NCBI RefSeq assembly: GCF_018283645.1
Contig: NZ_JAGSXH010000024.1
Coordinates: forward strand, 1 to 64,000
DNA length: 64,000 nt
From: Actinocrinis puniceicyclus
GTDB lineage: Bacteria > Actinomycetota > Actinomycetes > Streptomycetales > Catenulisporaceae
Direction: 5' to 3'
Below the pieces are notes generated by a model. The model saw only the letters and a program-made list of their open reading frames with translations, was not told where the DNA came from and searched no databases. Made by a program: the position numbers and the translations under genes. This document shows positions 3,036 to 16,563 of this stretch, piece after piece; position 1 is the stretch's first letter, and each line of letters begins with the position of its first letter.

Positions 3036-4418
3036 TTACGGAGTCTGGTTCGGGTGCTGCGGATAGTGAGGCTGTTGAGGGTACGGGTTCTGCTGCTGGT
3101 AGGGGTTTTGCTGCTGGTACGGGTTCTGTTGCTGGTAGGGCGGCTGGTATCCGCCGCCGTATTGGCCTGGCCCGGTGGGTGGTTTCGGGCCGCGCCGGGC
3201 GAGCAGGATGATCAGCAGGATGACGGCGAGTATGACGATGACACCGATGACGATGCCGATGATCAGGCCGGTGTGGGATGACGTGCTCGCTGGTGCTGTC
3301 TCGGTGCTGGGCGCGGTGGTGGGGTTTGCCGCGCCGGTGCCGGCGGTGGAACTGGAGCCTGGGCTCGCGCCTGCGCCGCCTGAAGCGAGCAGCGGGTTCG
3401 AGGTGTCGGATGGCGCGGGCGCTTGCAGGGCTTTGAGGGGGTCGATCACGCCGTAGCCGTATTGGTCGCTGTGCTGGCCGGCGGTTTGTCCCGCACCGGG
3501 GTCGGCGGTGGCTATGAGGTCGCGGATGACCTGGCCGGCGGTCCAGCCGGGGTGTGCGCTGCGGATGAGCGCGGCCGCCGCTGAAACGTACGCGGTGGCT
3601 TCCGACGTGCCTGATTCGGTGCCTTGCTCATTGAGATTGTTATCCCTGAAGATATCCACGCCGGGCGCAGTGACTACAACCTGGCTGCCCACATTAGAGC
3701 GCTGCCAGATCCGGCCTCCCTGATCGACAGCGCCCACAGCGACCACGCCCGGATAGGCTGCGGGATAATCGACTGAACTCGCCGACTCGTTTCCAGTAGC
3801 CGCGACCACGACAACATTCGAATCTATCGCTTGAGTGATGGCAGCTTGGACGGTGGGGTCTGGCACAGCGCTGTTGAGCGAAAGATTGATTACGCCCACG
3901 TGCTGCTGCACGGCGAATTGAATGCCTGCGGCAAGTTCTTGTGCGGTGAAGCCACCGGCACCGGTCATCACCCGCACCGGAAGGATCTTTGCCTCAGGAG
4001 CCAGGCCAGTCACATTGGTGCCGCTGCCGACGATGACTGACGCCATGCCAGTTCCGTGGCCCGAGCTGTCTGTATCGGTCGTTCCGTTGCCACTACTCGT
4101 GGCTCCTTGGGAGAAATCAGCGCCGGAGAGGACCTGGCCATTCAGATCGGGGATCGAGGCGACACCGGAGTCCAGGACTGCGACGGTGACGTTCGCACCC
4201 TTTGAGATCTGCCAGTCCTGGGATGCCTTGAGATATCCCAGCGCCCACTGTTGGCTCGAAAATGCCTGTGCGGGGCTCGCGGTGACCGCAGGAAGAGCGA
4301 GCAGCGCTGCCGCGATGGCCGCGCTGCCCGCACGCCTCAGTGCAGCCTTTTTCGGCTGCCTCGTACGCAAAACTACTCGATGACCGGCGGGGCTACTCGT
4401 TGTGCGCTCTGCCACCAT
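3036..4418 (-). CDS. mycP: Mycosin, type VII secretion subtilisin-like protease
   Basis: 460-residue membrane-anchored serine protease of the ESX apparatus. Signal peptide about 24-52 (Ala-Gln-Ala). Catalytic triad: Asp83 in AVLDSGV, His121 in SSGHGTGMAS, Ser272 in SGTSEAT, with Asn210 as the oxyanion residue. A Pro/Ser/Thr linker (340-382) leads to one transmembrane helix (384-407). The cytoplasmic tail is unusual: four QNPY-type units (YQQQNP repeats, 428-446) in a Pro/Gln/Tyr-rich stretch. Its 5' end overlaps the upstream gene by 46 nt, suggesting coupling; a GTG at codon 15 or 16 is an alternative start. The core ESX ATPase (EccC) and channel genes are not in this window. Confidence 0.93.
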   Translation of the reverse strand: MVAERTTSSPAGHRVVLRTRQPKKAALRRAGSAAIAAALLALPAVTASPAQAFSSQQWALGYLKASQDWQISKGANVTVAVLDSGVASIPDLNGQVLSGADFSQGATSSGNGTTDTDSSGHGTGMASVIVGSGTNVTGLAPEAKILPVRVMTGAGGFTAQELAAGIQFAVQQHVGVINLSLNSAVPDPTVQAAITQAIDSNVVVVAATGNESASSVDYPAAYPGVVAVGAVDQGGRIWQRSNVGSQVVVTAPGVDIFRDNNLNEQGTESGTSEATAYVSAAAALIRSAHPGWTAGQVIRDLIATADPGAGQTAGQHSDQYGYGVIDPLKALQAPAPSDTSNPLLASGGAGASPGSSSTAGTGAANPTTAPSTETAPASTSSHTGLIIGIVIGVIVILAVILLIILLARRGPKPPTGPGQYGGGYQPPYQQQNPYQQQNPYQQQNPYPQQPHYPQHPNQTP

Positions 4419-5899
4419 TCCGGGTCTTCCTTCAGATAATCAGGGCGCTCACGGCGCTCCTCGTCCTCATCGCGACTGACGCCACGCCGGCCAATGCCCT
4501 GCGTCATGTGCAGCGGGTTGCCATCGGCGTCCGTCGCCCCGTCGTACGCCGACGTTACCCGACCGGTGCCTGAGCCGCGTGCGCCGTCGTTGACCAACAG
4601 CGACTCGTTGCCGCCGATCGAGGGCTGCACCCACTCCTCGGGCGCTGATCCGGGCTCGTCGCCGCCGAAGAAGCGACCGCGCGAGTACCGCGAGGATCCG
4701 AGTTCTTCCTCACCCGATGCCCCGCCTCCCTGCCGACCGCCGCCCATGCCGCGCAGACCGGCCTGACCCTCGCCGGACGCCGAACTTCCGGCACCACCGC
4801 CGAGGCGGCCGCCCATCGGCGCTTCCTCGCCGCCCAGTTCGCTCCCGCCGAGGCCGGCACCGTTGCGGCGCGCGGCGCCACCGGATTCGCTGCCGAAACC
4901 GTCTTCGCCGAACACGTTCGATGAGTTGAACTTGGACGTGCGGCCGGCACCGTTCTCCTCGCCCGCGCCGCCGCCGAACAGGCTCTCGCCGCCAAGCCCA
5001 CCGGGCTTGTTCGACTCCTCTGGCGGAGGCAGTGGCAGACCGGCGCCGGGAATACCCATGATCGGTCCCGGAGTCGTGGTGGTCGTTCCGGTTGCGACGT
5101 TCTCGATCCCGGGCGGGGCCGAACTCGGCGGCGAGGTGAGCGGTCCCACGTGCTGCACGGACGTGCCGCCATCGTGGAAGACACCCCCGGAAACGCTGCC
5201 ACCGACGCTCGACTGGTGTGTCGCCGTGCCACCGCCAGTTGTGGAACGACCGCTGTAGGTGTAGCTGCTGGCGGAGCTTGGGCCGCTGTAAGCGCCGCTG
5301 CCGAGACTGAAAGCTCCAGTCGAAGGATTATTGGGCTGGAAGTGCCAGCCTTCGTGTCCGCCCCCTGCGATCGAACTCATGTTGTTCGCAGCGGAGTCGT
5401 AGCTGGTGGACAGCGAGTTGAGCACCTCTGCCGCCTGGTTGCGCGCGGCGGTGTTGTGCTGCTGAGCCTGCTGTACTGGATCGGTCCCGGTGAAGATGTC
5501 CGAGAACGTGTTCGTGATCCCGCTGAACAGGCCGCCGGAGGGCACCGGCTTCTCGCTGGGCACCCTCTGCATCGCGGCCTGCGCCGACGCGGCGGCCGAC
5601 TGCGCCGTCTTCAGCTGCGAGATCGTGTTGTTGACCGTCGCGACGACGTTCTGCGCGTGATTCGACGTCTCCTTGAAGGTCTGGGTAGCCGCCGTCGCCG
5701 CATCACCGCTCCAGGCCGACTGAAGGGACGAATTCGCAGAATTGAGCGTGTCCACAATATTGTTCAGCGACGTGGCTACCTGCTGATAACCAGCGATCTG
5801 GTCACCGATCGCCCCCGGATCCAGCGCGGCGACCTGCTGCTTCGCCCAGGCGACACCGCCGTACTGCTTGATCGTGCCCTGGTTGAACTGATTCGGCAT
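4373..5899 (-). CDS. PPE/WXG-like type VII secretion-associated protein
   Basis: 508 residues. The first 120 or so are helical with a WxG turn (Trp63-Ser-Gly65 in LQSAWSGDA), like PPE/WXG100 hairpins. Residues about 180-450 are Gly/Ser-rich and low in complexity (GGRLGGGAGSSASGEGQ). The acidic C-terminus (YLKEDPEWWQSAQRVAPPVIE-type) resembles tails of actinobacterial ESX-linked proteins placed next to mycosins. It is the middle gene of a WXG-like, PPE-like, mycP order, so it is probably a secreted substrate or cell-surface partner. Function beyond that is unknown. Confidence 0.82.
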   Translation of the reverse strand: MPNQFNQGTIKQYGGVAWAKQQVAALDPGAIGDQIAGYQQVATSLNNIVDTLNSANSSLQSAWSGDAATAATQTFKETSNHAQNVVATVNNTISQLKTAQSAAASAQAAMQRVPSEKPVPSGGLFSGITNTFSDIFTGTDPVQQAQQHNTAARNQAAEVLNSLSTSYDSAANNMSSIAGGGHEGWHFQPNNPSTGAFSLGSGAYSGPSSASSYTYSGRSTTGGGTATHQSSVGGSVSGGVFHDGGTSVQHVGPLTSPPSSAPPGIENVATGTTTTTPGPIMGIPGAGLPLPPPEESNKPGGLGGESLFGGGAGEENGAGRTSKFNSSNVFGEDGFGSESGGAARRNGAGLGGSELGGEEAPMGGRLGGGAGSSASGEGQAGLRGMGGGRQGGGASGEEELGSSRYSRGRFFGGDEPGSAPEEWVQPSIGGNESLLVNDGARGSGTGRVTSAYDGATDADGNPLHMTQGIGRRGVSRDEDEERRERPDYLKEDPEWWQSAQRVAPPVIE

Positions 5900-5968: not shown

Positions 5969-6376
5969 TCAGGTGCTCTTCTGCACCTGGGTCATGTCCA
6001 AGTGCAGGTTGTTCTCGGTCGTCGAGTACAACTGATGGGTCTTCTGGATCCGGTCGTGCAGATCACTGATCTTCTGATTCACCTCAGAGATCAAGCCGTA
6101 GATGGCCTGCTGCACCTGGCCGTTGGCCGAGTTCAGCCGCCAGGCCGCCTCAAGGCCGTCGTTCGTCAACCCGAAATTGGACGAGCCGTCACCCGACTCG
6201 GCGCGCTTGATGCCGCCCGGCGCCGCCGTCTGCTGAATGTCCGACGCCGTGTTGTTGTGAAAGGTGTTCACCGCGAGCGGGCTCGCCGGCGCCTGAAAGT
6301 GGTCCTGCAGCAGTGCCTGAAGCTTGGCACGGACCGCTTCAAGCTCCTCCAACTCGACTCTGAAGCTGCTACCCAT
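5969..6376 (-). CDS. Small helical ESX-type protein with YxxxE signal
   Basis: 135 residues, first gene of the leftward type VII operon. It has two predicted helical segments (3-30 and 78-118) and no WXG turn; instead a long Asn/Gly linker separates them. At the end of the second helix lies Tyr117-Ser-Thr-Thr-Glu121, a YxxxD/E type VII export motif. Probably exported as a partner of the downstream PPE-like protein, in the manner of PE/PPE or EsxA/EsxB pairs. The partner assignment is inference from order and size. Confidence 0.75.
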   Translation of the reverse strand: MGSSFRVELEELEAVRAKLQALLQDHFQAPASPLAVNTFHNNTASDIQQTAAPGGIKRAESGDGSSNFGLTNDGLEAAWRLNSANGQVQQAIYGLISEVNQKISDLHDRIQKTHQLYSTTENNLHLDMTQVQKST

Positions 6377-6644
6377 GACGCCGTTTTCCCCTCGGTTCCC
6401 CTCGTGTTGAAACTGCTCGCGCCACCCGTCGCGACGCCTGGCGCGCCGTCTGGCGGGGACACCCTATCGAAGGGTACCGACATGGACTGCGCACGGCCAC
6501 CGCTTCGACGCCGTAAGTTGGCGCGGCGGACCGGTACGGTTGACATCAGGCCGGCCCGTCGGCCCGAAAGGTCCACTGTGGCCACACCGCGCGCCGCGGT
6601 CCACCCGGTTTTCCCAGGCCCGCGGTTCAGGACGGAGGATCGCC

Positions 6645-8225
6645 ATGTCGGCGCGAGCAGCCGAGCCCGCCCGTCGCTCGGACGGCTCACCGCGCTACAG
6701 CCGCCGTACCGCACTGCGGACTCTCGGTGCCGCGGCGGCAACGGCGACGACGGCCGGGGGCGTCGCGGGATGCGCGGCAGGAACGGGAACCGGAGGTGTA
6801 CCCGCGGCGCCGTGGCAGGCCGCGGAGACCTCCCTGGACCCGTATTTTCCCGGACACGGCGCCGGAGGATTCCTCGTCAACCATTACGCGCTGGATCTGG
6901 CCTACGCGCAGGGCGCCGCACGGGTCGCCGGTACGGCCACAATCAGGGTTCTGCCCTATGAGGCACTCTCCGTGCTCAGCCTGGACCTGGCCGCCGGAAT
7001 GACCGTCTTGTCCGTCCGGGCCGATGGCGCGGAAGCATCGTTCTCCAGGCAAGGCGACAAGCTGCACATCCGGCCGCGCTCTGTGCTGCCGAGCGGGCGG
7101 ATGGCGCAGCTGGAGATCGCTTACTCCGGGCAGCCCGTGCCAAGCCGAATCGCCGGCGTCGGGCAAGTGGGCTGGCAGCCGACCGGCACAAGCGGAGCCG
7201 ACGGTGTGCACGCGCAGGCGGGTGCGCAGCCTGGTGCGCAGGCAAGTGCACAGGCGGGTGCGGACATCGCCGTACTGTCGCTGCCCGTCGGCGCGCCCAC
7301 GTGGTTCCCGTGCGCCGACCACCCGTCGCTCAAAGCCGCCTACGACATCGCGGTGACAGCGCCGACCGGGGTCCGCGTGCTCGCCAACGGGCGCCTCGTG
7401 GACAAGCGCCCACAGGACTTCGGTACCCGCTGGACCTACCGCCACGACGGGCCCATGGCGACATACCTGGCGACGATCGTGATCGGTGACCTCGTGATCG
7501 ACACCTCGTCAGGTCCGGCCGGCATCCAGTTGCGGAACGCGTACCCCGAGCGTCTCGCCGCGCAGGCACGCATCGACCTCGGCAGGCAAAGCCAGATGCT
7601 CACCGTCTTCGCCTCGCTCTTCGGTCCGTACCCGTTCGACGTCTACGGAACCGCCGTGCTCGACGGCGTGCCCGGGCTCACCCCCGCGGGCCCGCTCGGC
7701 GGAGCCTACGCCGCACAGACGCTCGGCCTGCTCGACTCCTCACTGGTCGACGGTCGGCGCACGCAAGAGAGCCTGATCGCCCGCACCCTCGCAGCACAAT
7801 GGTTCGGCGGCAGCGTGACAGTGAGCAAATGGACGGATATCTGGCTCAGCACGGCCTTCGCTCGATACGCGCAATGGGTCTGGCTGGAGAAGTCAGGGGG
7901 TGCTAGCGCCGACGCGGCCGCGCGCGCGGCGATCGGGCGGCTGCGTGCCCTCGCGCAAGACCTGGTCCTAGCCGACCCGGGAGCCGAGCGCATCCTGGAC
8001 GAGCGGGTCGCCCTGCGCGGTGCCTGTTTCCTGCACGCGCTGCGGCTGACGATGGGGGACCAGACGTTCTTCCAACTGCTGCGGATCTGGTGCAACCGCA
8101 ACCAGAGCGGCAACGCTCAGAGTGATGATTTCCTCCAACTGGTGCCGGCTGTCTACACCGCGCAGGACTTGACGCCGTTCATGCACGGCTGGGTCGACGC
8201 GGCGCCCTTGCCCGACTTGCCTTAG
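6645..8225 (+). CDS. Tat-exported lipoprotein, zinc-less M1-aminopeptidase-like pseudoenzyme
   Basis: 526 residues from ATG 6645 (GGACGGAGG upstream). Twin arginines (SRRTAL, 20-21) and a lipobox ending at Cys43 (GVAGC) indicate a Tat-exported lipoprotein. The body follows the M1 family: N-terminal beta saddle, then a thermolysin-like region with LIARTLAAQWFGG (377-389) and DIWLSTAFARY (398-408). In active M1 enzymes these read HELAHQWFG and LNEGFA. Here His, Glu and His become Arg380, Thr381 and Ala384, and the third ligand Glu, exactly 19 residues on, is Thr403. The GAMEN substrate loop is not recognisable either. An Ala/Gly/Gln-rich insert lies at about 188-205. Probably a binding or scaffolding protein rather than a peptidase. 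Confidence 0.85.
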   Translation: MSARAAEPARRSDGSPRYSRRTALRTLGAAAATATTAGGVAGCAAGTGTGGVPAAPWQAAETSLDPYFPGHGAGGFLVNHYALDLAYAQGAARVAGTATIRVLPYEALSVLSLDLAAGMTVLSVRADGAEASFSRQGDKLHIRPRSVLPSGRMAQLEIAYSGQPVPSRIAGVGQVGWQPTGTSGADGVHAQAGAQPGAQASAQAGADIAVLSLPVGAPTWFPCADHPSLKAAYDIAVTAPTGVRVLANGRLVDKRPQDFGTRWTYRHDGPMATYLATIVIGDLVIDTSSGPAGIQLRNAYPERLAAQARIDLGRQSQMLTVFASLFGPYPFDVYGTAVLDGVPGLTPAGPLGGAYAAQTLGLLDSSLVDGRRTQESLIARTLAAQWFGGSVTVSKWTDIWLSTAFARYAQWVWLEKSGGASADAAARAAIGRLRALAQDLVLADPGAERILDERVALRGACFLHALRLTMGDQTFFQLLRIWCNRNQSGNAQSDDFLQLVPAVYTAQDLTPFMHGWVDAAPLPDLP

Positions 8226-8257
8226 ACCAGCCGTTCGATCTCGATTTAAGGCAAGGT

Positions 8258-8309
8258 CCGGTCACGATTCGGTGCCGGTGAGGGCCTCGGTGCGGCAGCC
8301 CGTGACCGG
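8258..8309. terminator. Inverted repeat after the M1-like gene (hairpin, possible terminator)
   Basis: CCGGTCACG (8258-8266) and CGTGACCGG (8301-8309) are perfect 9-bp arms around a 34-nt GC-rich loop. It lies between two rightward genes, so it could end the first transcript or act as a leader element of the second. No T-tract follows. Confidence 0.4.
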
Positions 8310-8359
8310 CGCTCGCTAGGATCAGCCGCTCACGTCTTGAATTCTTAGAGGGGGACATC

Positions 8360-9205
8360 GTGTCCGAACCATGGGGGCAGCAGCCGCAGCAATCCGGCGG
8401 CGACTGGTCGGTACCGCAAAGCGGTGGCGACTCCGGGTCGTTCGCGCCGCCGCCGGTCGATCCGCAGTACGGCGCGCCGCAGCAGCCGCAGCAGCCGTAC
8501 GGGGCCCAGCCGCAGTACGGCGCCCCCCAGCAGCAGATGCCGCCGTACACGGACCAGGCGCAATACGGGGCTCAGCCGCAGTACGGCGCCCAGCCGCCCT
8601 ACGGTGCTCCAGGCGGCTACGGCGGCTACATGCCGCCGGCGCAACAGACGAACGGATTCGCGGTAGCCGGATTCATCCTGTGCTTCACGGCGATCCTCGG
8701 CCTGATCTTCTCGATCCTCGGCCTCGTGCGGTCCGGCAAGGCCGGTGGCAAGGGCCGCGGGCTCTCCATCGCGGGACTGGTGCTCTCGCTGCTGTTCGGC
8801 ATCGGCTACGGCGTCGGAATCGCGGCGGTCAGCAACAGCACCGCGCTCGACCCGGGCTGCACCTCGGCCGAGAGTTCCGTCACCTCCCTGCTCGACAGGT
8901 TGCAGACCGACAGCTCCAAAGTGAGCAACGACAGCAGCGACCAGACCGCGTTGCGGGCGGACCTGGCGACGTTCACCAATGACATCCAGACCCTGAAGAC
9001 GGACCTTGACAACGCGCTCGCCAAGGCGCAGCACCAGTCGGTCAAAGACCGGATCCAGGCCATGGACACCGACCTGGGCACCGTGCTCAGCGGCCTCAAG
9101 GCGCTCCAGAACGGCGACACCAGCCAACTGAGCCAGTTCACCGCAGCCGCAGACCGCCTCCAGGGCGACGGCACGGCGATCGACGACATCTGCAGCAAGC
9201 TCTGA
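8360..9205 (+). CDS. DUF4190-type membrane protein with Pro/Gln/Tyr-rich N-terminus
   Basis: 281 residues, GTG start after GAGGGGG. Residues 1-95 are disordered with repeated PQYGAP/PQYGAQ units. A DUF4190-like hairpin of two transmembrane helices follows (about 98-122 and 133-157, with a Gly/Lys-rich turn). The extracytoplasmic part (160-281) is helical, opens with LDPGC and ends with a Cys four residues from the C-terminus, so one disulfide could close the domain. The next gene is a clear paralogue. Function unknown; such proteins are abundant in actinobacteria. Confidence 0.85.
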   Translation: MSEPWGQQPQQSGGDWSVPQSGGDSGSFAPPPVDPQYGAPQQPQQPYGAQPQYGAPQQQMPPYTDQAQYGAQPQYGAQPPYGAPGGYGGYMPPAQQTNGFAVAGFILCFTAILGLIFSILGLVRSGKAGGKGRGLSIAGLVLSLLFGIGYGVGIAAVSNSTALDPGCTSAESSVTSLLDRLQTDSSKVSNDSSDQTALRADLATFTNDIQTLKTDLDNALAKAQHQSVKDRIQAMDTDLGTVLSGLKALQNGDTSQLSQFTAAADRLQGDGTAIDDICSKL

Positions 9206-9226
9206 CCCCTCCTCGCCGAGAGACAA

Positions 9227-9275
9227 GCAGGGCCGCCGCCGGCAGCACCGCCGGCAGCGGCCCTGCGCCGTTTCT
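9227..9275 (+). terminator. Rho-independent-type terminator
   Basis: Complementary arms GCAGGGCCGC and GCGGCCCTGC (outer) plus GCCGGC inner arms form a long stem at 9227-9266, followed by TTTCT at 9271. It follows the stop of the first DUF4190 gene and would separate it from the paralogue. Confidence 0.65.
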
Positions 9276-9443
9276 CCCGCCCCGGCTGCACGAAGCCGGT
9301 TCATCCTCCGTTTCTGATTCCACGGCCGTCATCACTTTTCGGCCGCGTTTGGTTGCACGTGCTGGTGCACGGTGCGCGCGACTCATACGATCATCAATCG
9401 TTGTCTGTCGCTTATCCGGTTTAACGCAAAGGCAAAAAACAAC

Positions 9444-10061
9444 ATGGCGAACGACTCGAACGAAGCGCTCTCGCTGTTCGAGGTTCCCCCGGCCGAACCG
9501 GCCGGGAACGGGGACTACCCAGGCCACTGGGACGACCACACGACCCCTCCCGCGGACCGGGGCAACCCCCTGGCCCTGGCGGGAGCGGTCGTTTCGTTTC
9601 TGCCTCCGGTCGGGCTCGCGCTCAGCGCGATCGGGTTGCGCCGCTCTCGCTCGCGGCGAGGCGCCGGACGCACGGCGGCGCTGATCGGAATAACGCTCTC
9701 GCTCGTGCTCGGCGGCGTCGAAACCTACGTCGCAGCCACAGCCCCGCTACTGGACTCCGGCTGCCTCAACGCCAACACCGCGGCATCACGGCTCCGCGCC
9801 GTCCAAGCCGCACCCGGCGGCGACCTGAGTGCGCTCGCGGCTGAACTCGACGCGATACACACCACCCTCGACGGCGCCGCCGACAGCGCGGACAGCGCTC
9901 AGGTGCGTACCCGACTGCAACTTGTAGCCGGTGACCTCGAAGCGCTGTCGGTCGACATCACGAACGCGAAAGCGACGGGGGAGACGGGCCAACTGGTGAC
10001 CGACGAGGCCAAACTGCAGGTGGACGGCACCGCGGCCGACTCATACTGCCACTCACTCTGA
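9444..10061 (+). CDS. DUF4190-like membrane protein, paralogue of the preceding gene
   Basis: 205 residues from ATG 9444. Same plan as the gene before it: polar N-terminus (short here, without PQYG repeats), two transmembrane helices (about 45-65 and 75-100) around a basic turn (RRSRSRRGAG), then a helical outer domain that opens with LDSGC and closes with a Cys four residues from the end. Conserved marks in both copies are LD[PS]GC and DGTA.D..C..L. Tandem duplication with loss of the repeat region is the simplest explanation. It is tail-to-tail with the response regulator, 23 bp apart. An in-frame start at 9372 is possible but has no ribosome site. Confidence 0.8.
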   Translation: MANDSNEALSLFEVPPAEPAGNGDYPGHWDDHTTPPADRGNPLALAGAVVSFLPPVGLALSAIGLRRSRSRRGAGRTAALIGITLSLVLGGVETYVAATAPLLDSGCLNANTAASRLRAVQAAPGGDLSALAAELDAIHTTLDGAADSADSAQVRTRLQLVAGDLEALSVDITNAKATGETGQLVTDEAKLQVDGTAADSYCHSL

Positions 10062-10084
10062 CCGCGCGACAGCACTCTGATGAA

Positions 10085-10771
10085 TCATCCGACGAGGCCG
10101 TGCCGGTACGCATAACGCACGGCTTGGGCGCGGTCACGCACACCGGCCTTTGCGAACAGATGGTTGATGTGTGTCTTGACCGTGGCTTCGGACACGAACA
10201 GTTGCGCGGCGATCTGCGCATTGGAACTGCCCGCCGCGATCAGGCGTAGCACTTCGATCTCACGCGCCGTCAGATTGTCCGGTCTCGACGATACGCTCTG
10301 CGCTGTCGCCATCGGCACCGGGCTGCTCGCGGCGGCCGCGGCAGAGACAAGCCTGCGCTGCACCGCGCCGTCGAGGACCGACTGACCGGCCGCGGCCGCG
10401 ATCACGGCGCGGGCGATGTCCTCGCGCCCCGAGTCCTTGGTGAGATAGCCGAGCGCACCTGCCTGAAGTGCCCCGTGAATCGAGACGTCGTCAGCGTAAG
10501 TGGTCAGCACGACCACCCTCGTGCGCGGGTACTGTGCGGTGATCCGCGCAGTCGCCTCGATGCCGTCCATGACAGGCATGTGCAGGTCCATCAGCACCAC
10601 GTCCGGATCCGTCGCCGCGACCGCGTCAAGCGTCTGCCTTCCGTCGCCCGCGGCGGCGACAACGGTGATCTGCGGATCGAGATCAAGCAGGGTGACCAGT
10701 CCGTCGCGCACCGCGGCCTGATCATCCGCGACGAGCACGCGGATCTGGGGCCTTTCCGAACCGGAGTCCAC
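10085..10771 (-). CDS. NarL/LuxR-family response regulator
   Basis: 228 residues. Receiver domain 9-125 with the acidic pair Asp16-Asp17, phospho-acceptor Asp62 (LMDLHMP), Thr90 region (VVLTTY) and Lys112 (YLTKDS). A C-terminal LuxR helix-turn-helix (165-225: LTAREIEVLRLIAAGSSNAQIAAQL) binds DNA. It lies 74 bp downstream of the histidine kinase in the same direction and is its expected partner. A 19-nt palindrome sits just upstream of its start. Targets unknown. Confidence 0.95.
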   Translation of the reverse strand: MDSGSERPQIRVLVADDQAAVRDGLVTLLDLDPQITVVAAAGDGRQTLDAVAATDPDVVLMDLHMPVMDGIEATARITAQYPRTRVVVLTTYADDVSIHGALQAGALGYLTKDSGREDIARAVIAAAAGQSVLDGAVQRRLVSAAAAASSPVPMATAQSVSSRPDNLTAREIEVLRLIAAGSSNAQIAAQLFVSEATVKTHINHLFAKAGVRDRAQAVRYAYRHGLVG

Positions 10772-10783
10772 CGCTCCAGCCTA

Positions 10784-10802
10784 GTGTCCCGCGCCGGGAC
10801 AC
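10784..10802. promoter_or_regulatory. 19-nt palindrome between kinase and regulator genes
   Basis: GTGTCCCG-CGC-CGGGACAC (10784-10802) lies 12 bp before the response regulator start. It could be an autoregulatory operator or a small hairpin that sets the kinase/regulator ratio. LuxR-type regulators do bind dyads of this size, but no target is proven. Confidence 0.45.
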
Positions 10803-10845
10803 CAGGCCGTGGTTGAGAAGTGGCGTCGCGGCCCCGCGAGGTTGC

Positions 10846-12126
10846 TCAAACCCGGCCTGGACCAGGGCGAGGCACCAAAGGCCGCGCGACGGCATCCGGC
10901 CGCTGAGTTCCAAGGGGCCGCGCGCTCGCCGGAATACGCAGGGCGACTCGCCAGCCGTCGCCGTGCGCGCCCGCGTCCAGACTGCCTCCGGCCAGCTCTG
11001 CGCGTTCCCTGAGGCCGGCCAGGCCGTAGCCACCGCCGGACGAGGCGAGCGCAGTGACCGGCGCGGTCGCGGCACCGTTGGTCACCGTCAGGACGGTTTC
11101 GCAAGCAGCGCACACCAGCGAGAGCTCGATCGGTGCGCCCGGGGCGTGCTTGCGCGCATTCGTCAGTGACTCCTGCGCGGTGCGGTACAGCGCCAGCGAT
11201 GTGTCGGGCTGGAGATCAGCCGGTTCACGGTCCGCGACGACGGTGACGGACGCGCCGGTGTCCGACGCGTACGATTCGGCCAGCGCACGCAACAGCGTCC
11301 GCAGGGGCGGAGTGTCCTCACGCAGCGCAGCGATGGCCCGGCGCGTCTCAGTCAGGCCCTCGCGCGCGATGCGCCGCGCGCTGATCACATAATTGTGCGC
11401 CTTCTGCGGGTCGGTCCCGCTGCTCAGCAGCGCGTCGGCGGCTTCGAGCTGCACCGTCAGCGCGGAGAGGGAGTGCGCGAGCACATCGTGGATCTCGCGG
11501 GCGATACGGCCGCGCTCGGCCAGCGCCGCCGCGTGCGCCTGCTCGTCGTTCGCGCGGCGCGTCTCCGCCAGCAACTGCTCGGCGGTGGCAGCGCGCTGCG
11601 ACTGGGCGTGCCGGCCGAGACCCAGGCCGTAGCACCCGAACAGCACACCGACATACCCGGCCGCGGTGCCCGGGTTCGCCCCGGACACCGCGGTGGTGAC
11701 GAGCATGATCACGGAGAAGGTGAGGACGATGGTCAGCGAGAAGCGGACCCGGAAGCGCACGGACGCGGACATCGTGGCGGACGCCGGAAAGGTGACAGCG
11801 ACCGACGGCAGGTCCAGCCCCGTGAGCAGCGCGCCGGCCGCGCCGAACACACACAGCGCGACGATCACGGCCCGCTCGCCGATCCGCTGCGGTGCGAGGT
11901 AGATCCCGGCGGACCAGACGACCCAGCCGGCAGCGCAGAACGCAAGCATCACGGCGGCGAGCAGTCCGACCCCGTGTGTGCCGAACTGCACGTGTTGACG
12001 CTGAGTCAGAGTGGCCCACAGGATGAATCCGAGCGCGGCCAACCGCGCCGGGAACATGCGGTACCTCGCCGGCACGGCACGGTGCTCGGTCGACCACTTC
12101 GCGGTCCAGTCGATCACGTCCGACAC
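10846..12126 (-). CDS. NarL-family sensor histidine kinase
   Basis: 426 residues, GTG start, no obvious ribosome site. Four to six N-terminal transmembrane segments (about 28-42, 53-76, 85-104, 130-148, 156-170) and no large extracellular sensor. HisKA_3 dimerisation domain with phospho-acceptor His213 (REIHDVLAHSL), then an HATPase domain (N-box QESLTNARKHA, G-box GGGYGLAGLRER). The C-terminal 30 residues are Pro/Arg-rich. It pairs with the downstream response regulator. The signal is likely membrane-derived, but nothing in the sequence names it. Confidence 0.93.
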   Translation of the reverse strand: MSDVIDWTAKWSTEHRAVPARYRMFPARLAALGFILWATLTQRQHVQFGTHGVGLLAAVMLAFCAAGWVVWSAGIYLAPQRIGERAVIVALCVFGAAGALLTGLDLPSVAVTFPASATMSASVRFRVRFSLTIVLTFSVIMLVTTAVSGANPGTAAGYVGVLFGCYGLGLGRHAQSQRAATAEQLLAETRRANDEQAHAAALAERGRIAREIHDVLAHSLSALTVQLEAADALLSSGTDPQKAHNYVISARRIAREGLTETRRAIAALREDTPPLRTLLRALAESYASDTGASVTVVADREPADLQPDTSLALYRTAQESLTNARKHAPGAPIELSLVCAACETVLTVTNGAATAPVTALASSGGGYGLAGLRERAELAGGSLDAGAHGDGWRVALRIPASARPLGTQRPDAVARPLVPRPGPGRV

Positions 12127-12306
12127 GGTAATACCCGTGGGCTGATCAGCGAAGTGTCTCGCGCGAACCGCCCGCCGACGACGAAAACGATCATCGTGGC
12201 CGCGATCGCGGTCTGCCCGCGTGTGGCTCCCGTGCTCATCTCCCGCTCCCCGATGCCTGCCGCGTGAAGGTACGGCTCGAAGTTAAGCGCGCGGGCGGCA
12301 CGCCGG

Positions 12307-12337
12307 GATCAACCCGGGGGTTGGCTCCGGGTTGATC
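12307..12337 (-). terminator. Hairpin terminator of the MprF-like gene
   Basis: Perfect 11-bp arms GATCAACCCGG (12307-12317) and CCGGGTTGATC (12327-12337) with a 9-nt loop lie 28 bp past the stop codon. No T-tract follows, which is common in high-GC actinobacteria. Confidence 0.6.
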
Positions 12338-12364
12338 CTCGCAGTGAACGAAGTCGCGCCGGCC

Positions 12365-14140
12365 TCAATCCGACCGCGCTCGCCTGATCGAGGGCAGCGC
12401 GAGGAAACCCTCGGCGCGCGCATAGGCGACGCCGATGCGCGGAAGGTCGCTGGACCGGCCGTAGAGCACGAAACGCGGTTCCCAGATCGGGCGGTACTTG
12501 GCGTTCGCCCGGTACAACGATTCGAGCTGCCACCAGCGCGAGAAGAACAGCAACACCGCGCGCCACAGGCGCAGCACCGGCCCGGCGCCGAGCCGTGAAC
12601 CGCGCTCGAAGACCGCCCGGAACATGGCGAAGTTCAGCGAGATCCGCTCGACGCCCACCTCGGCGGCCCGCTGGATCAACTCGATGACCATGTATTCGAT
12701 CACGCCGTTGTCCGACGCCTTGTCCCGCCGCATCAGATCCAGCGACAGCCCCGAACTTCCCCAGGGCACGTAGGACAGCAGCGCGCACAGCCGGCCCTCG
12801 ACGTCGTGGCACTCGACCATCACGCAGCGCCCGTCCGCCGCGTCGCCCAACCGGCCGAGCGCCATCGAGAATCCGCGCTCGCTCTCGCCGTACCGCCAGT
12901 GGTCCGCGGCCTTGATCAGCGCGGCGAACTCGTCTCTGGGAATGTCCTCGTGCCGGCGGACGCGCACCGTGTAACCGGCGCGCTTGACCCGGTTGTACGC
13001 CTGCCGTACTACGCGCATCGCCCGGCCCTCAAGGGTGAAGTCCGCGACCTCGACAACGGCCTCGTCGCCGAGCTCGAGCGCGGTGAGGCCGTGCCGTTGG
13101 TAGACCGTGCCGCCCTCCTCGCTCGCCCCGGCCACCGCCGGTGCCCACGCGTGTTGATACGCCTCGGTCAGCCATGCCTCGATCGCCCCCGGCCATGCCT
13201 CCGGGTCGCCGAGAGGGTCGCCAGACGCCAGGGATACGCCTCCTACGACGCGGTACGCGATCGCGGACTTGCCTGTCGGGGAAAAGACGACCGCCTTGTC
13301 CCGGCGCAGTGCGAAGTAGCCGAGCGAGTCGCGGTCCCCGTGTTTGTCGAGCAGTGCGCGCAGCCGCTCCTCGTCCTCGGGCGAGTGCAGCCAGCGCCCG
13401 CGTGGCGAACGGAAGAGCGAGTAGAGCGCCAGCAGGAACAGCGCGAGGCTCATCAGGTTGATGATGACGCCGACCCAGTGCGGCACCACCAGGCCGTCCG
13501 GACCCATGTCGTCCCCGGCGAGGGTCGCCACGCGGGCCAGGGTGTAGCCGATACGGTCGCCCAGGCTGGAGACGCCGAGCGACCCGAAGGTGCTGACCAG
13601 CAGCACCCCGATCGCCACCGCGGCCGCGCCGCCGCCGAGCAGCACCCCGGCGGCCAGCTTCGGATTGTTCCGATCGCCCTTCGCGTAGAACTCGCGGCGA
13701 CCGCCCAGCAGCGCCAGCCACAACAGCAGCGTGAACCCGGTGGAGAACCAGTCGAACGGGTGGCCGCGGAACTGCGGGAAGATCATCGCATAGACGTAGA
13801 GCGCGGCGGTCGGCGTCAGCAGGACCATGTTGAAGATCCACGCCACGCGTTTACGCCGCCCCATCGTGACGGCCATGAACGCGGTGAAGGCGGCGGACGC
13901 GTACCCGGCGGTCAGCAGGTACGGCGTGAAGTAGTCGCCGGAATTGTGCCGGTGCACGGTGTTGCCGAAGGACACGAAGATCGCGCCGAGCAGATTCAGC
14001 AGCGCGGCGATCCGCAGGTACCAGACCGCGTAAACCGCCGAAGGACCGCGCAGCCGCCCGCCCAGCAGCCCCTTGCCCGGGGCCGGGGCGCAGTTGCCGC
14101 CCTTCCGGCCGGTAGACCGTTCCACAGTGCCCGCAGACAT
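12365..14140 (-). CDS. MprF-like membrane protein with DUF2156 aminoacyl-phosphatidylglycerol synthase domain
   Basis: 591 residues from ATG 14140 (GAAGGGACG upstream). The open frame continues much further 5' but would collide with the divergent LLM gene and has no homology there. About six transmembrane helices span residues 35-260, followed by a cytosolic DUF2156 double-GNAT domain (about 275-580) with VFSPTGKSAIAYRVVGG, LASGDPLG and LSLDLMRRDK. In MprF and the N-terminal half of LysX this domain transfers lysine or alanine from tRNA to phosphatidylglycerol, giving resistance to cationic peptides. No lysyl-tRNA synthetase domain is fused, so it would draw on the cell's aminoacyl-tRNA pool. 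Amino-acid specificity is not readable. Confidence 0.88.
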   Translation of the reverse strand: MSAGTVERSTGRKGGNCAPAPGKGLLGGRLRGPSAVYAVWYLRIAALLNLLGAIFVSFGNTVHRHNSGDYFTPYLLTAGYASAAFTAFMAVTMGRRKRVAWIFNMVLLTPTAALYVYAMIFPQFRGHPFDWFSTGFTLLLWLALLGGRREFYAKGDRNNPKLAAGVLLGGGAAAVAIGVLLVSTFGSLGVSSLGDRIGYTLARVATLAGDDMGPDGLVVPHWVGVIINLMSLALFLLALYSLFRSPRGRWLHSPEDEERLRALLDKHGDRDSLGYFALRRDKAVVFSPTGKSAIAYRVVGGVSLASGDPLGDPEAWPGAIEAWLTEAYQHAWAPAVAGASEEGGTVYQRHGLTALELGDEAVVEVADFTLEGRAMRVVRQAYNRVKRAGYTVRVRRHEDIPRDEFAALIKAADHWRYGESERGFSMALGRLGDAADGRCVMVECHDVEGRLCALLSYVPWGSSGLSLDLMRRDKASDNGVIEYMVIELIQRAAEVGVERISLNFAMFRAVFERGSRLGAGPVLRLWRAVLLFFSRWWQLESLYRANAKYRPIWEPRFVLYGRSSDLPRIGVAYARAEGFLALPSIRRARSD

Positions 14141-14524
14141 CCGCCGCTCGCGTCCCTTCGCTGTCCGATTCGTCCTTCTCATCCTGACGGACGGAGGCAC
14201 CGCGACGCGAACCGCGCGGCACCGCGTCCGCCCGGCCGTGGCGGGGCCGGGCGAACGCGGTCGCGGGGCCTGTTCCGGCGGCCTGGATGGTCCAGCGACT
14301 TCCCGGCCAACGGCAACAAGCTCCCTCCGGAAAATGACGAGATGCTCGCCTGACCGGTTCCGGGCGAGTCGACACGTTGATGCTGCCGGACGCGTGGCTG
14401 CCGAGACCAGAGCGGTTGGCTGTCGAGCCGGTGAAGGCGACCTTGCCGACGCCCGACGGCTACAGCGGTCGGGCGGCGCGCAAGGCGGCGATGCCGAGTC
14501 CGGTCCCGGTGCCAGGATGGGCCC
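14141..14524. other. Divergent intergenic region, no gene seen
   Basis: 384 bp between the MprF-like and LLM genes. It must hold both promoters. I found no convincing -10/-35 pair, palindrome or RNA. Confidence 0.5.
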
Positions 14525-15451
14525 ATGCAACTGCGCATCTTCACCGAGCCCCAGCAAGGCGCCACCTACGACACCCAGCTGACGATCGCCAAGGCCGCCG
14601 AAGACCTGGGCTTCGACGGCTTCTTCCGCTCGGACCACTACCTCAAGATGGGCGAGGTTTCCGGCCTGCCGGGACCGACGGACGCCTGGATCACCCTCGC
14701 CGGGCTGGCCCGCGAGACCTCCCGCATCCGGCTCGGCACCCTGGTGTCCCCGGCGACCTTCCGGCTGCCCGGCCCGCTGGCGATCCAGGTCGCGCAGGTC
14801 GACCGGATGTCCGGCGGCCGGGTCGAGCTGGGCCTGGGGACCGGATGGTTCGGCGAGGAACACGCGGCGTACGGGATCCCCTTCCCGGACAAGCGGTTCG
14901 AGCTGCTTGAAGAACAGCTGGCGATCGTCACCGGGCTCTGGGACACCCCGCAGGGGCAGACCTTCTCGTTCGCCGGCGAGCACTACCGGCTGGTGGACTC
15001 GCCCGCACTGCCGAAGCCGGCGCAGCGTCCGCACCCGCCGGTCATCGTGGGCGGCAGCGGCCCGACGCGCACCCCGCGCCTGGCCGCCCGCTACGCCGAC
15101 GAGTTCAACGCGAACTTCTGCGACCTGCAGGAGACGGCCGCCAGCTTCGCGCGGGTGCGCGCCGCGACGGCGCAGTCGGGCCGGGACCCGGACTCACTCA
15201 TCCTCTCCGCCGCCAGCACGACCGTCGTCGGCAAGGATGACGCAGAGGTGGCTCGGCGCGCTGAGGCGGCCGGGGTGCCCGTCGAGTGGCTGCGCGAGAA
15301 GGGCTACTACGGCACACCGGGCGAGGTGGTCGACACGCTCGGTCGCCTCAAGGAACTGGGCGCTACCCGGATCTACCTTCAGATCCGGGACCTGGCCGAC
15401 CTGGACCACCTGGAGCTGATCGCCGCCGAGGTGGCGCCGCAGCTGGGCTGA
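14525..15451 (+). CDS. LLM-class F420-dependent oxidoreductase
   Basis: 308 residues, a luciferase-like TIM barrel. Family marks: MQLRIFTEPQQGATYD at the N-terminus, ...EDLGFDGFFRSDHYLKMG (27-46), RIRLGTLVSPATFR, the glycine-rich LGLGTGWFGEEHAAYGIPF (106-124) and PPVIVGGSG (about 175-183). Such enzymes use coenzyme F420 in actinobacteria to reduce or oxidise small organic substrates, here unknown. The ATG lies 8 nt after an AGGATGG-like site. Together with the Ddn-type protein at 718-1326 it shows an F420-using organism. Confidence 0.92.
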   Translation: MQLRIFTEPQQGATYDTQLTIAKAAEDLGFDGFFRSDHYLKMGEVSGLPGPTDAWITLAGLARETSRIRLGTLVSPATFRLPGPLAIQVAQVDRMSGGRVELGLGTGWFGEEHAAYGIPFPDKRFELLEEQLAIVTGLWDTPQGQTFSFAGEHYRLVDSPALPKPAQRPHPPVIVGGSGPTRTPRLAARYADEFNANFCDLQETAASFARVRAATAQSGRDPDSLILSAASTTVVGKDDAEVARRAEAAGVPVEWLREKGYYGTPGEVVDTLGRLKELGATRIYLQIRDLADLDHLELIAAEVAPQLG

Positions 15452-15509
15452 CGGACCGGCCGGACGGCCCGGCGAACGGCGCCGGGCCGGGCCGGGCCGA
15501 GATGATTCC

Positions 15510-15522
15510 GACAACCGTTGTC
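15510..15522. promoter_or_regulatory. Palindromic operator candidate for the metal exporter
   Basis: GACAA-CCG-TTGTC is a perfect 13-nt dyad 46 bp before the likely start at 15568. An AT-rich segment with a TATACT -10-like box (15538-15543) follows. Metal sensors of the ArsR/SmtB or Zur type use AT-rich dyads near such promoters; the regulator is not identified here. Confidence 0.45.
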
Positions 15523-15567
15523 ATTGTCATATCTCAATATACTGTTTCACCGGCTATGCTGTGGCGC

Positions 15568-16563
15568 ATGAAGGTCGACCGCGCGCGCGACGGCGAGGGA
15601 CACGAGGAAGACAAGCCCGATCGTGCCGGCCACGGCCACGGGCACGACCACGGGCACGACCACGGCGCGGCGGTCCGCGCGGACTCGGACCGCCGCTACC
15701 TGACCGCGGCGCTCGGGCTGATCCTCGCCTTCATGGCGGCCGAGGTGACCGCCGGGCTGTCCGCGCGCTCGCTGGCCCTGGTCTCGGACGCCGGGCACAT
15801 GCTCACCGACGCCGCCTCGCTGGGCTTGGCACTGTTCGCCATGCGGCTGGCCGCCCGTCCGGCCAGCGGGCCGTGGACCTACGGCCTGCGCCGCGCGGAA
15901 ATCCTCTCCGCGCAGGCCAACGGCATCACGCTGCTCGTACTCGTGGTCGTGTTCGGCGACGAGGCGGTGCGCCGGCTGATCGAGCCGCCGAACGTGGCCG
16001 GCGGCCTGGTCACCGCGACCGCGCTCGTCGGCATCGCGGTCAACGCGGCGGCCGCGCTGTTGATCAGCCGCGCGAACCGGACCAGCCTGAACGTGGAGGG
16101 CGCGTTCCAGCACATCCTCAGCGACGCCTGGGCCTTCCTCGCCACGGCCGTCTCCGGCATCGTCGTGCTGACCACCGGGTTCGACCGCGCCGACGCGATC
16201 GCCTCGCTCTTCGTCGCCGCGCTGATGGCGCGCGCCGGATACCGGCTGGTGCGCGACTCGTGGCGGATCTTCCTGGAAGGCGCGCCGGCGGGACTGGAGC
16301 CCGCACGGGTCGGCGCCGCGATGGCGGCCGATCCGCAGGTCTCCGAGGTGCACGACCTGCACGTGTGGACGATCACCTCGGGGTTCGCGGCGCTTTCGGC
16401 CCATGTGCTGGTCGTGCCGGGGGAGAACTGCCACGCGGTGCGCGGCCGGCTCCAGGAGTTGCTGCGGGAGAAGTTCGGGATCCAGCACACGACGCTCCAG
16501 GTCGACCACGCGCCGGAGGCCCTGCTCACGATCGAGCGCACCGCGCCGCGCAGCGAGCACTGA
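15568..16563 (+). CDS. CDF-family cation (Zn2+/Co2+-type) exporter
   Basis: 332 residues from ATG 15568, with in-frame ATG 15556 as an alternative; neither has a ribosome site, and the TATACT box at 15538 lies so close that a very short leader or leaderless mRNA is possible. The N-terminus is His/Asp-rich (GHGHGHDHGHDHG, 21-33), a metal-chelating tail. Six transmembrane helices carry two HxxxD-type sites: SDAGHMLTD (73-81) and FQHILSDA (about 178-185). A cytoplasmic ferredoxin-like domain ends the protein (VHDLHVWTITSG). It exports divalent metal in exchange for protons. The family resemblance is to CzcD/ZitB. Confidence 0.92.
   Translation: MKVDRARDGEGHEEDKPDRAGHGHGHDHGHDHGAAVRADSDRRYLTAALGLILAFMAAEVTAGLSARSLALVSDAGHMLTDAASLGLALFAMRLAARPASGPWTYGLRRAEILSAQANGITLLVLVVVFGDEAVRRLIEPPNVAGGLVTATALVGIAVNAAAALLISRANRTSLNVEGAFQHILSDAWAFLATAVSGIVVLTTGFDRADAIASLFVAALMARAGYRLVRDSWRIFLEGAPAGLEPARVGAAMAADPQVSEVHDLHVWTITSGFAALSAHVLVVPGENCHAVRGRLQELLREKFGIQHTTLQVDHAPEALLTIERTAPRSEH

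Follow-up and report, generated by a model that had tools for sequence, protein, structure and literature searches.

The gene at 6645-8225 of the window (the 64,000-nucleotide stretch of Actinocrinis puniceicyclus DNA analyzed here) encodes a protein that belongs to peptidase family M1 by homology and, judged from its sequence, would not be an M1 peptidase by function. The family assignment is solid. Pfam profiles PF01433 (61.9 bits, cut-off 27.7) and PF17900 (43.7 bits, cut-off 25.8) both match above their cut-offs. All six catalytic positions of the protein are replaced. We put the probability at about 0.6 that it is an exapted, catalytically dead, lipid-anchored relative of PldII-like M1 proteins with a binding or scaffold role. 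The gene and its features, all on the plus strand, are these:

6645..8225, +, pseudo-M1 gene, 526 aa, predicted PldII-like lipoprotein (ORF, profile matches, alignment, tree)
6634..6638, +, GGAGG ribosome-binding site of the pseudo-M1 gene (sequence)
6645..6773, +, Tat-like signal (S19-R20-R21) and lipobox V-A-G-C43 (by eye from the translation)
7281..7283, +, L213 at the M1 substrate-pocket Gln/Glu position, Gln in nearly all relatives (alignment)
7710..7712, +, A356 replacing the GAMEN-type Glu, VENQ/VEAQ to YAAQ (alignment)
7782..7796, +, R380-T381-L-A-A384 replacing HEXXH, two Zn ligands and the catalytic Glu (alignment)
7851..7853, +, T403 replacing the third Zn ligand, Glu (alignment)
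8010..8012, +, A456 replacing the catalytic Tyr, VYxRGA to VALRGA (alignment)

The gene product and its catalytic positions

The reading frame is intact across 526 codons, and its ATG lies 6 nt past the GGAGG. GC content by codon position (0.71/0.57/0.82) is of the normal coding type. A search of the gene's surroundings for sigma-70-type promoters and terminators gave none, which is uninformative for a high-GC actinomycete. The earlier note had proposed Tat export and a lipid anchor, and both elements can be read in the translation. Following the twin-Arg signal (R20-R21), V40-A41-G42-C43 matches the lipobox pattern [LVI][ASTVI][GAS]C, which predicts a protein that is exported and lipid-anchored. 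The nearest Streptomyces relatives have the twin-Arg signal and lack the lipobox Cys; the lipid anchor therefore looks derived.

In a PDB sequence search the closest solved structures were 6a8z/6iff, a short M1 peptidase matched over residues 44-526 (E 1e-40), which we take to come from Deinococcus radiodurans. An AlphaFold2 model built from a two-row alignment was too poor to interpret (pLDDT 41.5, pTM 0.36). A low-complexity Ala/Gln/Gly insertion, AQAGAQPGAQASAQAGA, occupies residues ~185-207 of the N-terminal domain (window 7197-7266). It is absent from a diverged but intact relative in Streptomyces sp. SDr-06 (L031) and is probably derived by slippage.

According to the earlier note, the three zinc ligands and the catalytic Glu were replaced (R380, T381, A384, T403) at exact spacing. 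The alignment confirms this, with HEXXH-X18-E spacing preserved as 384-X18-403. Two further losses extend these four: A356 at the GAMEN-type Glu and A456 at the catalytic Tyr, positions that are Glu and Tyr in 100% of the relatives. Neighboring cleft residues have changed as well, an 8-residue insertion lies at ~342-350, and the mature part holds 8 His, compared with 11-26 in the relatives compared. The HEXXH-X18-E motif is kept in 65 of 65 short-M1 relatives retrieved at order and class level, so its loss here is neither chance nor a family-wide feature. The other M1 proteins aligned from 14 family genomes, including divergent ones checked as possible orthologues, all have an intact HEXXH, as do the two PepN-type M1 proteins of the window genome. 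One of these two seemed to carry an H-to-R change, but that came from misalignment, and its motif is in fact HEMAH. Sequencing error as the cause of the substitutions is ruled out by at least 13 separate base changes from functional codons over the six codons. The prediction that the protein is catalytically dead is well supported.

The position held by L213 aligns with what is presumably the substrate-pocket Gln of M1 enzymes such as LTA4H/PepN. With Q213 changed to Leu and E356 to Ala, both holders of the peptide N-terminus are gone, and canonical aminopeptidase-type binding is therefore unlikely. A peptide-binding receptor, as suggested in the earlier note, is possible, but would be unlikely to hold its ligand in the canonical way.

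The rest of the protein looks constrained. We took as near-invariant those columns at least 97% identical among the relatives, 71 non-catalytic and 6 catalytic. The window protein retains 61 of the 71 (86%) and none of the 6, whereas L031 retains 85% of the non-catalytic columns and all 6 catalytic ones. As column variability rises, retention in the window protein drops smoothly (70%, 45%, 29%, 23%), as expected if the sequence has been under constraint. Eight of the ten lost non-catalytic columns fall within 10 residues of a catalytic position (Fisher p 0.005); the same clustering test gave p 0.75 for L031 as a control. The Q213 to Leu change is one of the two losses that lie elsewhere. This pattern fits an old loss of catalysis with a retained scaffold, not a recent knock-out. 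Some of the constraint could be older than the catalytic loss. Overall, these comparisons lend moderate support to the protein being functional.

Searches of 14 family genomes, 198 order genomes, 395 class genomes and a GTDB contig scan turned up no orthologue that shares the substitutions. In these sets, in 99 relatives and among plasmids, nothing exceeded ~46-47% identity to the window protein. The pseudoenzyme is known from one genome, and a second species was not found in the genomes searched. The earlier note had spoken of a conserved surface pseudoenzyme. The case for a pseudoenzyme is stronger than it claimed, with every catalytic position lost and the fold constrained; in the absence of an orthologue with the same substitutions, "conserved" is unsupported. 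It had also held that orthologues with an intact HEXXH would point to recent decay. Intact relatives do exist, but they are only ~46% identical, and the loss is extensive.

Ancestry in a PldII-like, Pls-linked clade

A tree of short M1 proteins, built without the catalytic columns, places the window protein within an 11-row clade whose other 10 members are Streptomyces-type M1 proteins (100/97). It stands apart from the M1 proteins of its own family, and its branch is the longest in the ingroup. A clade with the pls-linked M1 proteins of the family was rejected on the tree, and with it vertical descent from them (p-AU 9e-5), a result to be read with caution given the long branches. The exact sisterhood of the window protein and L031, both on long branches, may reflect attraction. 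When L031 was omitted, the window protein was still nearest the same Streptomyces rows.

At least 59 of the 65 relatives lie directly downstream of a large synthetase matching TIGR02353 (Pls/PosA family); of those without a counted synthetase, two are the outgroup and one is at a contig edge. In Streptomyces albulus, translation of the aminopeptidase PldII is coupled to that of pls (PMC9223678), and the two genes share an operon (PMC8117764). PldII breaks down epsilon-poly-lysine and shields the producer (PMC9223678, PMC8117764). From gene context and this literature, the window protein is best read as a dead descendant of a PldII-like clade, an ancestry beyond the reading of the earlier note. 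The loss of its zinc site argues against degradation of epsilon-poly-lysine or related cationic isopeptides by the protein itself. The L031 locus (8121-16270) carries genes for the short M1 protein, an aspartate kinase, a diaminobutyrate transaminase and a Pls-type synthetase. This arrangement is that of a poly-diaminobutyrate cluster (PMC8117764), here apparently equipped with a PldII-like peptidase.

No Pls-family synthetase lies beside the pseudo-M1 gene, and the window genome has no TIGR02353 match over the cut-off. Its best score is 21.6 bits (cut-off 423), in a 430-contig draft that is 98.85% complete and from which a Pls gene may have been missed. A synthetase over the cut-off is present in 13 of the 14 family genomes, the window genome being the sole exception. 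At 6.8 Mb, compared with mostly 8-13 Mb in family relatives, the window genome also has no copy of the usual intact pls-linked M1.

The ESX-like and DUF4190 neighborhood

The earlier note placed the gene between ESX and DUF4190 genes. This holds, with WXG100-type and mycosin genes on one side and two weak DUF4190 matches on the other:

1506-2261 and 2488-2856, +, TipAS-type MerR regulator and SepF homologue beside the WXG/mycosin block
3036..4418, -, mycosin-like subtilase (S8) (PF00082)
4373..5899, -, long WXG100-domain protein (PF06013)
5969..6376, -, small ESX-like/WXG-type protein without a Pfam match, divergent neighbor with a conserved counterpart in the sister genus
8360..9205, +, first DUF4190-like protein (a), on the strand of the pseudo-M1 gene and downstream of it; match under the Pfam cut-off
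9372..10061, +, second DUF4190-like protein (b), probably duplicated in tandem; weak DUF4190 match
10085..12126, -, two-component pair of a LuxR-type response regulator and a histidine kinase, conserved block members (profile matches, sister-genus comparison)
12365-15034, -, lysX-like long ORF, block member (NF002821 639 bits, below the 742-bit cut-off)

The lysX-like ORF corresponds to the lysyl-phosphatidylglycerol synthetase part of LysX, without the lysyl-tRNA synthetase half. In the sister genus the corresponding block consists of the lysX-like gene, histidine kinase, response regulator, DUF4190 gene and two WXG-type genes, with a mycosin gene in one locus. Two genomes show it whole, and a third has a contig end before the DUF4190 gene. 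SepF is also found inside the corresponding loci of two sister-genus genomes (L106, L108). In the sister-genus block no M1 gene separates the WXG genes from the DUF4190 gene, and the intact M1 of these genomes lies elsewhere, adjoining pls. The simplest reading is therefore that the M1 gene was inserted in the window lineage. By the same comparison, the ESX link of the pseudo-M1 gene, which is divergent from the ESX-like genes, is positional only. The sister-genus loci have one DUF4190-like gene, compared with two in tandem in the window (8360-10061). The second looks like a duplicate that arrived with or after the M1 insertion.

Possible roles and comparison with known systems

In the mechanism we propose, a gene from the Pls-linked clade of Tat-exported M1 proteins would have come to sit between the WXG/mycosin genes and a DUF4190 gene in this lineage. 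The zinc site, the catalytic Glu and Tyr, the exopeptidase Glu and residues nearby were replaced and a lipobox Cys is present, whereas the M1 scaffold would have been kept under selection. Anchored in the membrane, the product would most likely act outside the cell as a binding protein or a scaffold. The leading candidate ligands would be a cationic polypeptide, the ancestral substrate class, or a partner from the envelope or ESX locus. A cationic polypeptide fits both the ancestry and the LysX-like neighbor. Because the ancestral substrate class is known, the binding hypothesis is directly testable. A more specific version, which we offer as speculation, is that a poly-lysine-degrading peptidase became a lipid-anchored, polycation-binding sensor, decoy or shield. 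The species, no longer making the polymer, would use it to guard against or detect cationic poly(amino acids) of neighboring actinomycetes, from a locus with a LysX-like lysyl-phosphatidylglycerol synthase and a two-component system.

It is conceivable that the gene is simply decaying: once the Pls synthetase was lost, a degrading peptidase would be useless and would drift toward a pseudogene. The synthetase missing from this genome and present in the 13 others would agree with such a history, as would the longest ingroup branch and the want of any orthologue to show that the dead form is maintained. We nevertheless find decay unlikely. The frame is intact, with a good ribosome-binding site and coding-type GC, and the non-catalytic conserved columns are kept as well as in the intact relative. 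The losses cluster at the active site instead of being spread, and the gene sits in another operon-like setting, not at a pls-M1 locus. The remodeling of the whole cleft, including the 8-residue insertion and the Arg and Thr side chains that now occupy the former metal site, could instead signal a new zinc-independent catalysis built in the old M1 cleft. But no catalytic triad or metal site is recognizable, the His count has gone down, and such a site occurs in none of the relatives; we consider this highly improbable.

The protein could also serve the ESX-like (WXG/mycosin) secretion locus as a scaffold or regulator, using its outer surface rather than the old cleft. The insertion between the WXG pair and the DUF4190 gene, at a site with no M1 gene in the sister-genus block, is in line with this, and the lipid anchor would put the protein on the face of the membrane expected for ESX substrates and mycosin. 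Yet the sister-genus block exists without the M1 gene, the M1 gene and the ESX-like genes are divergently oriented, and it is the neighborhood alone that speaks for the idea, which we hold to be doubtful. Taken together, the evidence leads us to prefer the exapted, catalytically dead binding or scaffold protein. It suggests one possible fate of a self-protection peptidase once its antibiotic-like polymer is no longer made, although the weight of the finding is limited by its coming from one genome.

The window protein resembles PldII of S. albulus in that its relatives are short M1 proteins directly beside Pls-family synthetases, and it falls inside their clade. It differs from PldII in lacking the catalytic residues, in having a lipobox and in not lying beside pls; the two are likened by context, not by sequence. 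The short M1 aminopeptidase of 6a8z/6iff, called a zinc metalloprotease in its entries, is of similar length but is a zinc enzyme with HEXXH and the downstream Glu, neither of which the window protein has. PepN-type M1 proteins (TIGR02412) belong to the same superfamily, and the window protein scores 92 bits on that profile against a cut-off of 591. M1 pseudopeptidases are rare in the literature. A 2024 review names Tma108 alone, a yeast candidate whose zinc site is kept and whose fold is thought to bind rather than cut (PMC11266112). Tma108 retains HEXXH-X18-E and is cytosolic, binding nascent chains there, whereas the window protein has no zinc site and is predicted to be extracellular; their likeness implies no close homology. 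A bacterial, lipid-anchored M1 protein that has lost six catalytic residues and kept its fold would be a clear case of a pseudopeptidase.
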